Shown: positions 9,738 to 35,582 of the stretch, in pieces
Numbering within the stretch: position 1 is the stretch's first letter
How the letters are laid out: each line of letters opens with the position of its first letter
Assembly: GCF_938074695.1 (NCBI RefSeq)
Contig: NZ_CALJEM010000041.1
Location: 1-42,080 of the forward strand
Length of the DNA: 42,080 nucleotides
Direction of reading: 5' to 3'
From: an uncultured Thermosynechococcus sp.
GTDB lineage: Bacteria > Cyanobacteriota > Cyanobacteriia > Thermosynechococcales > Thermosynechococcaceae
Translations under genes and position numbers: made by a program
The notes under the pieces: model-generated
The model's database searches: none
What the model was told of the DNA's origin: nothing
Seen by the model: the letters and a program-made list of their open reading frames with translations, nothing else

Positions 9738-10934
9738 TTGAGTTCATCCGTAACCGTACAAACAAAGGACGCGATCGCCCCCCACGGCGGTATTCTCGTG
9801 AATCGCATTCTCTCCCCTGAACAAAAACAGGCTTGGCTTGCCCGCGCCGATGAATTGCCCCGCGTGACTCTTGATGAGCGAGCCGTTTCTGACTTAGAAC
9901 TCATTGCCATTGGTGGGTTTAGTCCCCTAACCGGATTTATGGGACAGGCCGACTACGAGCGAGTGGTCGAAGAAATGTACCTTGCCAATGGCCTGCCGTG
10001 GTCTATTCCCATCACTCTCTCTGTCAGGGCTGAAGTGGCTGCCCCCTTAGAAATTGGCCAAACTATTCGTCTTGATAACGCAGCGGGTCAGTTTTTGGGG
10101 ATTCTCGAACTCACCGAAAAATACACCTATGACAAACGCCGTGAGGCTCGTTGTGTCTATCGCACCGAAGATGACAAACACCCCGGCGTCAAGGTGCTCT
10201 ATGAACAGGGAGAAGTTAACCTAGCAGGCCCCATTTGGCTCCTAGAGCGGCATCCCCATCCCCAATTCCCCAACTATTGCATTGATCCGGTAGATTCCCG
10301 TGCCCTCTTTCGCCAAAAAGGCTGGCGGACAATTGTTGGTTTCCAAACCCGCAACCCCATCCATCGCGCCCATGAATATATCCAGAAATGCGCCCTTGAA
10401 ATTGTGGATGGCCTTTTTTTGCATCCCCTCGTGGGTGCCACGAAGGAGGATGACATCCCCGCCGATGTGCGCATGCGTTGCTATGAAATTGTGTTGGAAC
10501 ATTACTTCCCTAAGGATCGGGTAGTGCTGGCCATTAACCCAGCAGCCATGCGCTATGCCGGACCGCGGGAGGCCATTTTCCATGCCCTAGTGCGCAAAAA
10601 CTACGGCTGTACCCACTTTATTGTCGGTCGCGATCACGCGGGCGTGGGGGATTACTATGGCACCTATGATGCCCAGCATATTTTTGATGAATTTGACCCG
10701 GCAGCCCTAGGGATTATTCCTTTGAAGTTTGAGCATGCCTTCTACTGCACCCGCACCCAGTCCATGGCCACCAGTAAAACCAGTCCCAGTAAACCGGAAG
10801 AGCGCATTCACCTCTCCGGCACCAAGGTACGGGAAATGCTGCGGCGCGGAGAATTGCCACCCCCAGAGTTTTCGCGCCCAGAGGTGGCGGCAGAACTGGC
10901 ACGAGCAATGCGACAACCGCAACTAGCACCATAG
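9738..10934 (+). CDS. sat: Sulfate adenylyltransferase (ATP sulfurylase)
   Basis: A 398-residue single-domain ATP sulfurylase making adenosine 5'-phosphosulfate from ATP and sulfate, the first step of assimilation. Active-site motifs are present: [12 protein letters not shown] (Q-x-R-N-P-x-H-x-x-H), [18 protein letters not shown] and [17 protein letters not shown]. No APS-kinase domain follows. The most likely start is TTG 9738 ([17 protein letters not shown]), which sits 8 bases after AAAGGAG. ATG 9693, in frame, would add 15 unconserved-looking residues and has no ribosome site. A hairpin terminator follows directly. Confidence 0.93.
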
Positions 10935-10937
10935 CCT

Positions 10938-10982
10938 AAAAATAAAACGAGGGGGTCAAGCTGACGGCAGCAAGACCCCTTT
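10938..10982. terminator. Bidirectional intrinsic terminator after sat
   Basis: GGGGTC-AA-GCTG (10952-10963), a 4-base ACGG loop, then CAGC-AA-GACCCC (10968-10979) make a 10-bp stem with a symmetric internal AA/AA loop. On the plus strand only TTT follows. On the minus strand the stem is followed by CTCGTTTTATTTTT, a better T tract. It could therefore also end a minus-strand transcript coming from 11395 downward. Confidence 0.75.
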
Positions 10983-10985
10983 ACA

Positions 10986-11395
10986 AGTTAGCAACGACGA
11001 TGTTTAACTCAACAACTAACGTGGACAAAACGTGGTTTTAGCTGGCGATCCAACCCCCTTTGCGATCTCAACCGATCAAGCTTGGAGCATGGACACTAGG
11101 TAATAGATTGCTGTCAACGTTGACGACTCTAGAGACTAGGAGGTTACCTAGTAGTGCCTTAACTCCCATGGACGACAGGATGGGGACTCGGCAGTAACCA
11201 CACGAACGATAAGGCTGGATAAAGCAAGAGAACAAAGATACAACGCTGAAGCTCAAAGGATTGATTTTGATGTTACTCGCAAGACAGGCGTGAGATTTAT
11301 CTTGGAGTAACTTTGCTTTATCCTGAACTCAAGGACTGGGAGGCACAAGCCTTAAGTTCACTCTTATCGTTACCCTTTCTTTCTGTGCCTACTTT
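10986..11395. ncRNA. Candidate structured non-coding RNA locus (strand unsettled)
   Basis: No convincing ORF lies here, but inverted repeats are dense. They are: ACTAGGTAA (11095-11103) with TTACCTAGT (11144-11152), enclosing the palindrome GTCAACGTTGAC (11113-11124); GGATAAAGCAA (11217-11227) with TTGCTTTATCC (11313-11323), enclosing GTTACTC-g-CAAGA / TCTTG-GAGTAAC (11272-11311); and TGAACT-c-AAGG / CCTT-a-AGTTCA (11324-11360). AGGCACA (11341-11347) can also pair with TGTGCCT (11384-11390). A minus-strand transcript is my preference: TATGCT at 11402-11407 could be its -10, and the hairpin at 10952-10979 gives a T-rich terminator, for an RNA of about 450 nt. Motifs of tmRNA, RNase P RNA and SRP RNA were looked for and not found. 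Confidence 0.4.
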
Positions 11396-11574
11396 TAGGC
11401 TAGCATAGGCATTCGAGAATCCTCAAATGTTAACCGAAAATTCAATATCTGAAATATTCCTTAACTAATTCTGCAATATGCTGTTAAATTTGCCGGTTGC
11501 ACCCTTTTAGGAGTACTTTTAGCACTGAACATTATCTCTGGATTTTGACAGTTTTGGCGATCGCCCCAAGCTCA

Positions 11575-11621
11575 TAAAAAACTGCACCAGCCCCCTACTT
11601 GCCGCTTTGGCGGAGCTGATG
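11575..11621 (-). terminator. Intrinsic terminator downstream of the 47-codon gene
   Basis: On the minus strand CATCAGC (11621-11615) pairs with GCTGGTG (11591-11585; one G-T pair), with an inner CCGCC/GCGG hairpin, followed by CAGTTTTTT. It lies about 70 bases beyond the stop of the small gene at 11694 and would give a short monocistronic message. Confidence 0.7.
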
Positions 11622-11693
11622 CGGAACTAATACTAGTTTAGTGATTTTTACCTGCAAGGTCTTTACAGGGATTCTGCTTGTGGAAGACAGTAA

Positions 11694-11837
11694 CTAACTC
11701 TTACGGGCGGGCGTTCCCGTGAAGGGCTGTGCCCCCGTGGAAGGATAGTGATCGTTGCGAGGGGTGAAGATGCGCCCAAATGCCTCCATCAAAAAGACCA
11801 TCATCCCTTGTAATTTCTCACGTAGTGCTTTTAACAT
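11694..11837 (-). CDS. Small 47-residue protein with a YP-x-TG-x-QPF-x-G motif
   Basis: ATG at 11837 is preceded at 7 bases by AGGAG (11845-11849) and the frame runs 47 codons to TAG. The N-terminal half is an amphipathic to hydrophobic helix (LKALREKLQGMMVFLMEAFG). The rest is polar with HYPSTGAQPFTGTP and a basic end. I have a sense of similar short cyanobacterial proteins but cannot name one. A -10 element, a hairpin leader and a terminator surround it, so it looks like a complete single-gene transcription unit. The amphipathic helix suggests membrane or partner-protein association, which is inference. It is too short for most gene finders. Confidence 0.7.
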   Translation of the reverse strand: MLKALREKLQGMMVFLMEAFGRIFTPRNDHYPSTGAQPFTGTPARKS

Positions 11838-11869
11838 AGGTCAACTCCTAAAGAAAGCGATTTAGGCTC

Positions 11870-11943
11870 CAGCCTTTGGCTTAATGATTGAACACCGCAG
11901 CAACGGAATCGAACCTCACCTCACCATCATTAGGTAAAGGCTG
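11870..11943 (-). promoter_or_regulatory. Structured 5' leader of the 47-codon gene
   Basis: CAGCCTTT (11870-11877) pairs perfectly with AAAGGCTG (11936-11943), and TAATGAT (11882-11888) with ATCATTA (11926-11932). Together they form a 15-bp stem broken by one small internal loop and capped by about 37 bases. A short alternative hairpin AGCC-TTT-GGCT (11871-11881) competes with the stem near the ribosome site. The long stem would start almost at the predicted 5' end. It may be a stabilising leader or a regulatory switch. No known riboswitch core was recognised. Confidence 0.55.
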
Positions 11944-11950
11944 TACTTTT

Positions 11951-11956
11951 AGTATA
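11951..11956 (-). promoter_or_regulatory. -10 element for the 47-codon gene
   Basis: The minus strand reads TATACT, a near-perfect -10. Transcription would begin about 11944, at the outer end of the leader stem. No good -35 was found at 17 bases, so an activator may be needed. Confidence 0.5.
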
Positions 11957-12058
11957 AAAAATCAGATAAGTTGCCTGAGGGAGTTTGAGACAATTTTTTA
12001 TATGCTGAATAAGGAAATTATTGATTTGTGAAATTTTGTTCTGAATGAGATTACACCC

Positions 12059-13621
12059 ATGACATTTATTCCCCCTCTTTCTGATCTTTCACTACGGGCA
12101 CAGGTGGCACAAATGGTGGTTGTACGCGCCAGTGGCTACCTCTACGATCGCCAGATTCAATATCCTGCTTGGGAACCGCCCCAAGACACCCTAAAACACT
12201 GGATTAAAGACTGGGGCGTGGGGGGGGTGATTCTCTTGGGGGGCAGTGCCGTTGAAGTGGCAGAGCGCTGTCGGCAACTCCAATCTTGGGCAACAATTCC
12301 CCTGCTGTTGGCGGCTGACATTGAGGAGGGGGTTGGTCAACGCTTTAGCGGTGCAACACAATTTCCGCCCCCGGCAGCTTTAGGAGCCATCGCCCAAAGG
12401 AATCCACAACGGGCAGTGGATCTGGCAAGGGCAATGGGAGCATCCACGGCAGCAGAGGCCTTGGCCATCGGCTTGAACTGGGTTTTAGCTCCCGTGGTGG
12501 ATGTGAATAACAATCCCGCCAACCCGGTGATTAATGTGCGCGCCTTTGGTGAGGAGCCAGAGGTGGTGAGTGCCCTTGCAACGGCGTTTATTCAAGGGGC
12601 AAAAACCTATCCAGTGCTAACAACAGCAAAGCACTTTCCCGGCCATGGGGATACAGCAACCGATTCCCACTTGCAACTGCCTGTGATTCCCCACAATCGC
12701 GATCGCCTGCAAGCCATTGAATGGCCGCCCTTTGTTGCTGCAATTCAAACAGGCGTGGATGCGGTGATGAGTGCCCATGTGCATCTCCCTGCCTTGGATG
12801 CCGAGCAACCCGCAACCCTGTCGCCCCAAATTCTCACAGGCATCCTTCGCCAAGAGATGGGGTTTAGGGGGCTAATTGTGACCGATGCCCTAGTCATGGG
12901 GGCGATCGCCCACAGCTACGGTACTGCGGAAGCTGCTGTCAAAGCCGTAGCAGCGGGTGCCGATATTCTGCTCATGCCCTTGGATCCCCCCGCCGCCATT
13001 GAAGCGGTGGTTGCGGCTGTTGAGTCGGGGCGGATTCCCTACGAGCGGATTCAGGCCTCTGTAGCTCGAATTCAAGCAGCAAAGGCGCGTTTGCTGCCCC
13101 TTTCGTTACAGTTGGACTATCTCCAGACCACCCCGGCCGTTGAAGTGGCCACCGCCATTGCCCAAGAAAGTATCAAGCGGGCTGGCCAAGCTTGGCAACC
13201 CGTTACCTCAGGGGTGAATTGTCTGGTGGTGGATGATGCGCTAAACGCCGGCTTTTTGAACTGCACCTGTCCAGCATTGACACTGCCTCCCACTTGGGGA
13301 TTTGACCAACGGGTGGTGATTGATCAGCAAACACCCCTGACAATGATTGAGGGCTTCTCCAGGGCACCGACCTTAGTGCAGGTATTTTGCCGTGGCAACC
13401 CCTTCCGCGGCAAAGCAGGGTTAAGTGTGCCAGCGATCGCCACCCTAGAATGGCTCCAAACCCACAATCAGTTGATGGGTCTGGTGGTCTATGGCAGTCC
13501 CTATGCCTACCACGAGATTGCCCAGCAGCTCCATCCCGATTTGCCCCGCGTCTTTAGCTATGGCCACGACCCCATTGCCCAAAGGCTGGCTCTAGGGTGT
13601 TTAGTGAAGGGAATCTTCTAA
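12059..13621 (+). CDS. nagZ: Glycoside hydrolase family 3, beta-N-acetylhexosaminidase (NagZ-like)
   Basis: A 520-residue GH3 enzyme. The (beta/alpha)8 domain covers ~1-345 and has the NagZ signature KHFPGHGDTATDSH, whose His/Asp pair acts as acid/base, and the nucleophile Asp in LIVTDALVMGAI. Such enzymes remove GlcNAc from muropeptides in cell-wall recycling. The C-terminal ~170 residues (from about VEVATAIAQES) are extra compared with the ~340-residue enterobacterial NagZ and resemble the second domain of longer GH3 proteins. No signal peptide is seen, which suits a cytoplasmic recycling role. No ribosome site precedes ATG 12059. The substrate is inferred from the motif. Confidence 0.82.
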   Translation: MTFIPPLSDLSLRAQVAQMVVVRASGYLYDRQIQYPAWEPPQDTLKHWIKDWGVGGVILLGGSAVEVAERCRQLQSWATIPLLLAADIEEGVGQRFSGATQFPPPAALGAIAQRNPQRAVDLARAMGASTAAEALAIGLNWVLAPVVDVNNNPANPVINVRAFGEEPEVVSALATAFIQGAKTYPVLTTAKHFPGHGDTATDSHLQLPVIPHNRDRLQAIEWPPFVAAIQTGVDAVMSAHVHLPALDAEQPATLSPQILTGILRQEMGFRGLIVTDALVMGAIAHSYGTAEAAVKAVAAGADILLMPLDPPAAIEAVVAAVESGRIPYERIQASVARIQAAKARLLPLSLQLDYLQTTPAVEVATAIAQESIKRAGQAWQPVTSGVNCLVVDDALNAGFLNCTCPALTLPPTWGFDQRVVIDQQTPLTMIEGFSRAPTLVQVFCRGNPFRGKAGLSVPAIATLEWLQTHNQLMGLVVYGSPYAYHEIAQQLHPDLPRVFSYGHDPIAQRLALGCLVKGIF

Positions 13622-34107: not shown

Positions 34108-34194
34108 GGAGAGGTGGCAGAGTGGTTGAATGCGCTTGACTCGAAATCAAGTTTAGGGTAACACCTAACGGGGGTTCGAATCCCCCCCTCTCCG
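34108..34194 (+). tRNA. tRNA-Ser (anticodon CGA)
   Basis: 87 bases with a class II long variable arm. The acceptor arms GGAGAGG (34108-34114) and CCTCTCC (34187-34193) pair, with G34194 as discriminator. The anticodon stem CTTGA/TCAAG surrounds loop CTCGAAA, giving CGA, which reads UCG. The T arm has GGTTCGAATCC. The 3' CCA is not encoded. TATGAT at 34092-34097 is a likely -10. Confidence 0.95.
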
Positions 34195-34234
34195 TTGACT
34201 TTCCCAATGGTTTAGAAAAGGGCCGACTCTTGCC

Positions 34235-35219: not shown

Positions 35220-35582
35220 GGCCGTCACGGTAGGGAATTCCCAGATTTTAGCGAAATTCCCGCAAAAAGAAACCCTACGCCAAGCGGGTAGGGCCAAGGA
35301 CGCAGTTAGGAGGTATCTTGTTTCCCTACGATACTGCCGATATTTTGGGGGAGCCAAAGCTTTTACCAATTCTTTAGATTTGGCGCAATTAACTGTTACA
35401 ATACACAAGAAGCTGTTATCTAGAATACTAAATTCTCAGCCCTTTTCTAAAATGGGTGGGAATCTAGTTTGGGCGGTTTCAAGTGCCTTCACCCCTTCTG
35501 AAAAGGACTGTGGGGGGCTTGCTCCTCTGTCCCTCGACTACCCTAAGAGCTAGGAAAGAATTCTTTAATTTAGTATTGGGCA
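35220..35582. other. Intergenic region between divergent pyrR and uvrB
   Basis: 363 bases without a convincing gene. It should hold both promoters. AT-rich 35380-35435 has candidate -10 elements for either direction (TACAAT at about 35398, TAGAAT at about 35421), none with a clear -35. CCCTTTTCTAAAATGGG near 35440-35456 is a weak hairpin. No LexA-like box was recognised before uvrB. Confidence 0.4.

Follow-up and report, generated by a model that had tools for sequence, protein, structure and literature searches.

The minus strand of the window (the whole 42,080-nt stretch of Thermosynechococcus DNA analysed here) carries at 11837–11694 a frame of 47 codons (144 nt including the stop). Its product, MLKALREKLQGMMVFLMEAFGRIFTPRNDHYPSTGAQPFTGTPARKS, has an aligned core and homologues in other cyanobacteria, and a bridge through Synechocystis salina ties it to the published literature; on these grounds, the best reading of the gene is atpT (formerly norf1), which encodes AtpTheta, the described inhibitor of the cyanobacterial ATP synthase. 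Upstream on the same strand lie a ribosome-binding site, AGGAG (11845–11849), seven bases before the ATG, a predicted leader that includes a hairpin region of 74 nt (element 1, 11870–11943), a −10 box, TATACT (11951–11956), and an AT-rich block, CATATAAAAAATTGTCTCA (11986–12004), roughly 43–61 nt upstream of the predicted start. An intrinsic terminator, GCATCAGC..GCTGGTGC followed by six T residues (11576–11622, minus strand), is located downstream, outside the interval 11694–11956 that holds the gene, its leader and the −10 box. Between a 470-aa frame (end 10934) and atpT there is a long gap (10935–11693). Elsewhere in the window, the stretch 2328–2505 on the plus strand matches IsrR, the antisense RNA of isiA, in Rfam (103.9 bits).

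We compared these features at 13 loci of the genus, representing 11 genomes (L070 and L071 being duplicates of L046 and L047). The AT-rich block is conserved across the genus, and all 13 loci have the same or a near −10 box, the variants being AAACT in L010 and TATAGT in L048 and L049; AGGAGTTGACCTATG is an anchor common to 13/13 loci. The terminator stretch has a folding energy of −22.5 kcal/mol and is recognisable by eye at 11 of the 13 loci (not in L048 or L049). A simple consensus scan returned no promoter at TATACT and no terminator within 11000–12200, so that the promoter call rests on TATACT and its conservation. The −10 box, AGGAG and terminator that the initial annotation had assigned to the gene are all present in the sequence, and the predicted anatomy is monocistronic, with the gene's own transcript bearing a 5′UTR and a terminator. 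In the leader of L047 (also L071), a small duplication has given rise to CTTTAGGACTTTAGGAG, two ribosome-site-like repeats 5′ of atpT.

The 47-codon gene is real. Homologues are present in all 11 genus genomes, as a single copy in each, and in 28 of the 29 family genomes. Third codon positions are the most variable among the 13 genus loci (240, 98 and 880 pairwise differences at positions 1, 2 and 3, respectively), and synonymous codon differences exceed non-synonymous ones (725 vs 344). Taken with the homologues found across the class, this excess places the frame beyond chance and bears out the annotated 47-residue gene with a conserved frame. The gene had also been described as overlooked; judged by its sequence, it is not new but a member of the published AtpTheta/norf1 family. 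It is also found, at 93 % identity, on the Thermosynechococcus contigs M98_K2018_005 and M46_R2017_013, where the leaders do not differ from those in two of the genus genomes.

Phylum-wide, 77 of 194 genomes contained a homologue at E ≤ 0.1, including 73 of the 89 genomes of the same class; four weak matches (E 0.003–0.08) lay outside the class. Most of the 16 same-class misses (12/16) belong to one small-genome family, which we took to be picocyanobacteria. This distribution agrees with the published spread of AtpTheta, which is cyanobacteria-specific with picocyanobacterial gaps: norf1 is described as specific to cyanobacteria, present in 138/202 genomes and absent from picocyanobacteria (PMC5126843).

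Good evidence for AtpTheta membership is provided by the size of the S. salina homologue, the register and span of the published primers, the leader length and the match to L030, the link to Synechocystis 6803 AtpTheta running through S. salina and those primers. The norf1 product of Synechocystis sp. PCC 6803 is reported to comprise 48 aa, and primers for a 168-nt probe were published with it (PMC5126843); the homologue in S. salina LEGE 00031 (L074) is likewise 48 aa long. Read in frame, the primers encode EMLQDLM and VNSTEE plus stop, which align in register with QMLQDLV and VKNAEE of S. salina. The primer sites in S. salina are 144 nt apart, equal to the published 168 nt minus a 24-nt T7 tail, with base matches of only 18/24 and 18/28. 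With the published 5′UTR length of 143 nt, the transcript in S. salina would start six bases after a GATAAT box. L030, a second genome of the S. salina group, has the same primer span, and 46 % of residues are identical between its homologue and the window protein in a 37-residue alignment (BLASTP, E 3e-14). The 6803 gene itself was not found: a search of the genome collection for the exact norf1 primer was negative, as was one of 386 phylum genomes at ≤ 2 mismatches; three near matches were returned from 50 genomes of one family, none of them within a verified homologue.

The gene organisation also resembles that of Synechocystis atpT, for which a 143-nt 5′UTR, a 144-nt coding region and a 101-nt 3′UTR with a terminal stem-loop have been described (PMC9241938). 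The coding region including the stop is likewise 144 nt in the window, and the proteins (48 aa in Synechocystis, 47 in the window) are alike in core and tail, as judged via S. salina. Both genes have a promoter of their own that lacks an evident −35 box, a leader and a terminator hairpin in the 3′UTR, and the AT-rich elements reported at −58 to −48 of the Synechocystis promoter (PMC9241938) are paralleled in position by the AT-rich block of the window. There are also differences. The window leader, at about 106 nt, is unlike the 143-nt Synechocystis leader in sequence, and the HLR1-like motif that RpaB binds, which characterises the Synechocystis promoter rather than the protein family, is not evident in the window; HLR1 scored at chance in 9/11 genus promoters, with 0.047 and 0.07 in L048 and L049, respectively.

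At the protein level, the YP-x-TG-x-QPF-x-G tail picked out in the initial annotation proved to be the family signature. Eight residues (R22, F24, D29, Y31, P32, G35, Q37 and P38) are invariant in 21/21 aligned members, whose core aligns without gaps. For the helix described there as hydrophobic, amphipathic is the better term, as the best 19-residue Kyte–Doolittle mean is only 0.72. A fraction of 0.10 of shuffled sequences equalled or exceeded the window helix in amphipathicity, so that this helix taken alone is not above shuffles at the 5 % level, whereas three relatives are (S. salina, 0.0025; L048, 0.014; L014, 0.0045). The window protein had no match in NCBIfam or Pfam. Weak hits of family members to MoaC (0.13, one member), DUF362 (0.22, one member) and DUF7563 (3/21 members, best 0.0065) were taken as chance. 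No solved structure matched the window protein, and the family profile returned one irrelevant match (E 0.56). Phage records gave no match to the protein, and IMG/VR gave one locus with a match of 11 residues only.

The leader contains three potential hairpins. The first is a long interrupted stem, in which CAGCCTTT (11943–11936) pairs with AAAGGCTG (11877–11870) and TAATGAT (11932–11926) pairs with ATCATTA (11888–11882); both parts are present in the sequence, at 11943–11870, in agreement with the annotated stem beginning at the predicted 5′ end. The second is a short hairpin, AGCC-AAA-GGCT (11871–11881, minus strand), which forms part of the fold predicted for the window leader. The third, a CCTAAA/TTTAGG hairpin (11847–11866, minus strand), would cover the ribosome-binding site; its two arms occur in all nine distinct long leaders, among which the pairs never vary. 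For L043 and L044, the minimum-energy fold pairs these arms; both short leaders (L048 and L049) lack the hairpin.

The long stem is missing from the minimum-energy fold of the window leader, the folding energy of which is ordinary (z −1.24; 22/200 shuffles fold as well). It does form in the minimum-energy folds of three congeners, L043, L044 and L047, again with ordinary energies (z 0.25, −0.65 and −0.35, respectively). The window contains 54 perfect 8-bp inverted repeats with loops of 40–110 nt, compared with 47 ± 8 in 20 shuffles, and the leader stem is not beyond chance expectation.

In five genomes (L042, L045, L046, L010 and L011), an extra piece of ~100 nt, element 2, is nested inside the stem. 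A DNA search with the L042 copy found the piece at atpT in four of the five, the L010 copy being seen only by leader comparison, and returned matches in 8/11 genomes, with up to nine in one. Searching by the end pattern instead identified 12 elements in 6/11 genomes, one of the 12 being the atpT copy itself, and the reversed end pattern, used as a control, returned none in the 11 genomes. From eighteen dispersed copies, we built a profile for this family, which is defined here by its TACAGCCYTTT ends. Element 2 matches the profile (62.4 bits for the nested copy of L042), whereas element 1 shares the ends and length only. Examples of dispersed ~100-nt copies are L042:1276–1373, G000:C60:9224–9323 and G000:C35:46033–46130, and the window itself has two weaker profile matches, at 35437–35511 (plus strand, 19.7 bits) and 34186–34223 (minus strand, 13.2 bits). 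Our literature search returned, in the portions of the texts accessible to it, no paper to the point on miniature inverted-repeat (MITE) elements in Thermosynechococcus.

Element 1, the leader hairpin region itself, is probably what remains of a transposon-like element of ~100 nt. It is 74 nt long in the window and 102 nt in L043, and its ends are the long stem, with perfect 8-bp terminal inverted repeats in the window. On this reading, the element would have inserted at the transcript start in an ancestor shared by nine of the eleven congeners examined. The −10 box is followed by 38 nt in L048 and L049 and by 113 to 250 nt in the other congeners, and L050, from the next genus, has a short leader as well. 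In an atpG tree, L048 and L049 group together (98/98) and fall outside the clade of the remaining nine strains, for which support is modest (86/77). The 20 nt following element 1 match the short-leader sites better than 2000/2000 shuffles; a gap exactly at the ends of element 1, as expected for an empty site, appeared in only 1/4 automatic alignments. The dinucleotide TA, a candidate target duplication, stands before element 1 only, with GA or AA after it.

Element 1 begins TACAGCCTTT, like the dispersed family, and its length in L043 is within the family range. Dispersed copies of it were not found, as matches at E ≤ 0.01 occur only at the atpT loci of the 11 genomes, and it has no significant score with the dispersed-family profile. 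Given the lack of dispersed copies, we have not filed element 1 as a member of the family and regard it as only probably derived from it. We then compared its interior with 200 shuffles that preserve the ends: 0–1 scored at least as well as the interior of L043, the least decayed copy, 0–5 as well as that of L011 and 3–18 as well as that of the window, for which this control is weak. A full-shuffle control (0/200) was set aside in favour of these end-preserving shuffles because it destroys the ends and is therefore too easy. For the hairpin of the window itself, a transposon origin is likely, as judged from these sequence comparisons.

The same observations can be read the other way, with the hairpin as an old native atpT leader that was lost in L048 and L049 and whose likeness to a transposon end is a coincidence or an effect of the second insertion. 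This would explain why element 1 lacks both dispersed copies and a significant profile score, and long leaders do exist elsewhere, the 143-nt leader reported for Synechocystis (PMC9241938) being one. A native origin sits less easily with the short leader of L050 and the position of L048 and L049 in the tree, with ends in TACAGCCTTT and a length of 102 nt as in the family, and with the interior of L043, which beats 199–200 of 200 end-preserving shuffles. We consider it rather unlikely.

A further reading, and the one implied by the initial annotation, in which the short hairpin competes with the long stem, takes the leader for a conserved RNA switch. In this scenario, the long stem would alternate with the short or the CCTAAA/TTTAGG hairpin and so control translation or mRNA stability. 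The short hairpin is indeed present, but the switch is not supported. Its appeal lies in the arms of the long stem, which are identical in six of the nine leaders, in the invariance of CCTAAA and TTTAGG in all nine, and in the best folds of L043 and L044, which contain both the long stem and the ribosome-site hairpin (that of L047 has the long stem). In addition, the Synechocystis atpT 5′UTR together with the promoter was reported to be needed for dark induction of a reporter (PMC9241938). When we counted the stem pairs by script in the nine distinct leaders (15 pairs, 135 cells), 122 cells paired and 13 were broken; three contained one-sided compatible changes and none a two-sided, compensatory change. 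The stem thus lacks covariation, one of the signs that the initial annotation had named as counting against it. Arms picked by anchor were used for this count because automatic alignment had set the end of the nested element against the outer arm. With identical arms in six of the nine leaders, the covariation test has limited power, while the three leaders with varying arms argue against the long stem. The folding energies of the four leaders given above are ordinary, and the long leader is absent altogether from L048 and L049 (2/13 loci, 2/11 genomes). No Rfam family was matched within 10900–12100 at E up to 1, and hence no known riboswitch or sRNA. Finally, the Synechocystis authors assign the effect on mRNA stability to the coding region or 3′UTR rather than the 5′UTR (PMC9241938). 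We therefore hold a conserved switch to be improbable, and favour an origin of the hairpin in a transposon-like insertion. It is a long shot that this hairpin and the CCTAAA/TTTAGG hairpin have since been recruited to set the stability or translation of atpT mRNA, with the nested second insertion, apparently lost in some strains, retuning this strain by strain.

As for function, AtpTheta is described as a small amphipathic protein that prevents ATP hydrolysis by the ATP synthase and, in Synechocystis, builds up in the dark, where the atpT mRNA has a half-life of 33 min compared with 1.6 min in the light (PMC9241938). Mitochondrial IF1 and alphaproteobacterial zeta are likewise small proteins that limit F-type ATP hydrolysis (PMC9241938, PMC9317440); we saw no sequence relation between them and the window protein, and neither the protein nor the family profile has a relevant solved structure. 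By analogy with Synechocystis 6803, we infer the expression, dark induction, binding, inhibition and regulation of the window protein. The protein may build up in darkness or when energy is low. Through its putative amphipathic N-terminal helix and conserved proline/glycine-rich tail, it would bind the F0F1 ATP synthase of the thylakoid and impede reverse rotation or wasteful ATP hydrolysis, while light would remove the atpT mRNA and protein again. An ATP synthase gamma subunit is encoded in the window genome; the 292 residues that were read contain a single cysteine and thus no chloroplast-type redox pair.

AtpTheta-like sequences were also observed in other settings. At L148:7779–8090 (minus strand, genome G431), a 103-residue protein combines a Nif11 domain (Pfam, E 8.2e-12) with an AtpTheta-like tail; its gene is on the opposite strand to an alternative ATPase operon, 29 nt beyond the gamma gene of that operon. 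At least residues 1–91 of a 96-residue version of this protein were matched in 6/194 phylum genomes, and the stretches examined in those six contained no ATPase genes. Three other stretches with an alternative ATPase had no AtpTheta-like neighbour by motif, and alternative ATPase or hydrogenase-type genes were near 0/81 homologue loci within the stretches examined; both results speak against a general link. A literature search found no paper joining Nif11, ATP synthase and cyanobacteria. At L150:4671–4862 (plus strand, genome G419), a 63-residue atpT paralogue is situated between hydrogenase or complex-I type genes, with 51K flavin and 2Fe-2S subunits before it and 2Fe-2S/4Fe-4S and 20K subunits after it. 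AtpTheta-like frames also occur on plasmids of Nostoc (three) and Acaryochloris (one) (NZ_CP040275.1, NZ_CP117772.1, NZ_AP023442.1 and NZ_CP071719.1), and 2/4 of their best places have no annotated gene.

That the window protein is a family member by descent with another job, for example as a membrane-binding helper of another complex, is very improbable. In favour of such a job, it was in Synechocystis, according to the papers, that AtpTheta function was tested, and paralogues lie beside an alternative ATPase, between hydrogenase-type genes and on plasmids; against it, the gene is single copy in the genus and its length and signature are closely conserved.

We thus read the gene as Thermosynechococcus atpT, with a leader hairpin that is most likely a transposon-like remnant and not a proven switch (probability about 0.83 for this reading as a whole). 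A known energy-saving brake would thereby be placed in a thermophile; the ATP synthase of this organism lends itself to biochemistry, and because the enzyme is stable, the inhibition could be tested on it. The leader suggests more generally that a hairpin with conserved arms can originate in a transposon-like insertion and is not necessarily a riboswitch. The control of atpT mRNA is still termed an unknown post-transcriptional mechanism in a 2026 review (PMC13421787). Should the insertion affect expression, strains that carry no insert, a single one or two nested ones would constitute a natural test series for the control of atpT mRNA.
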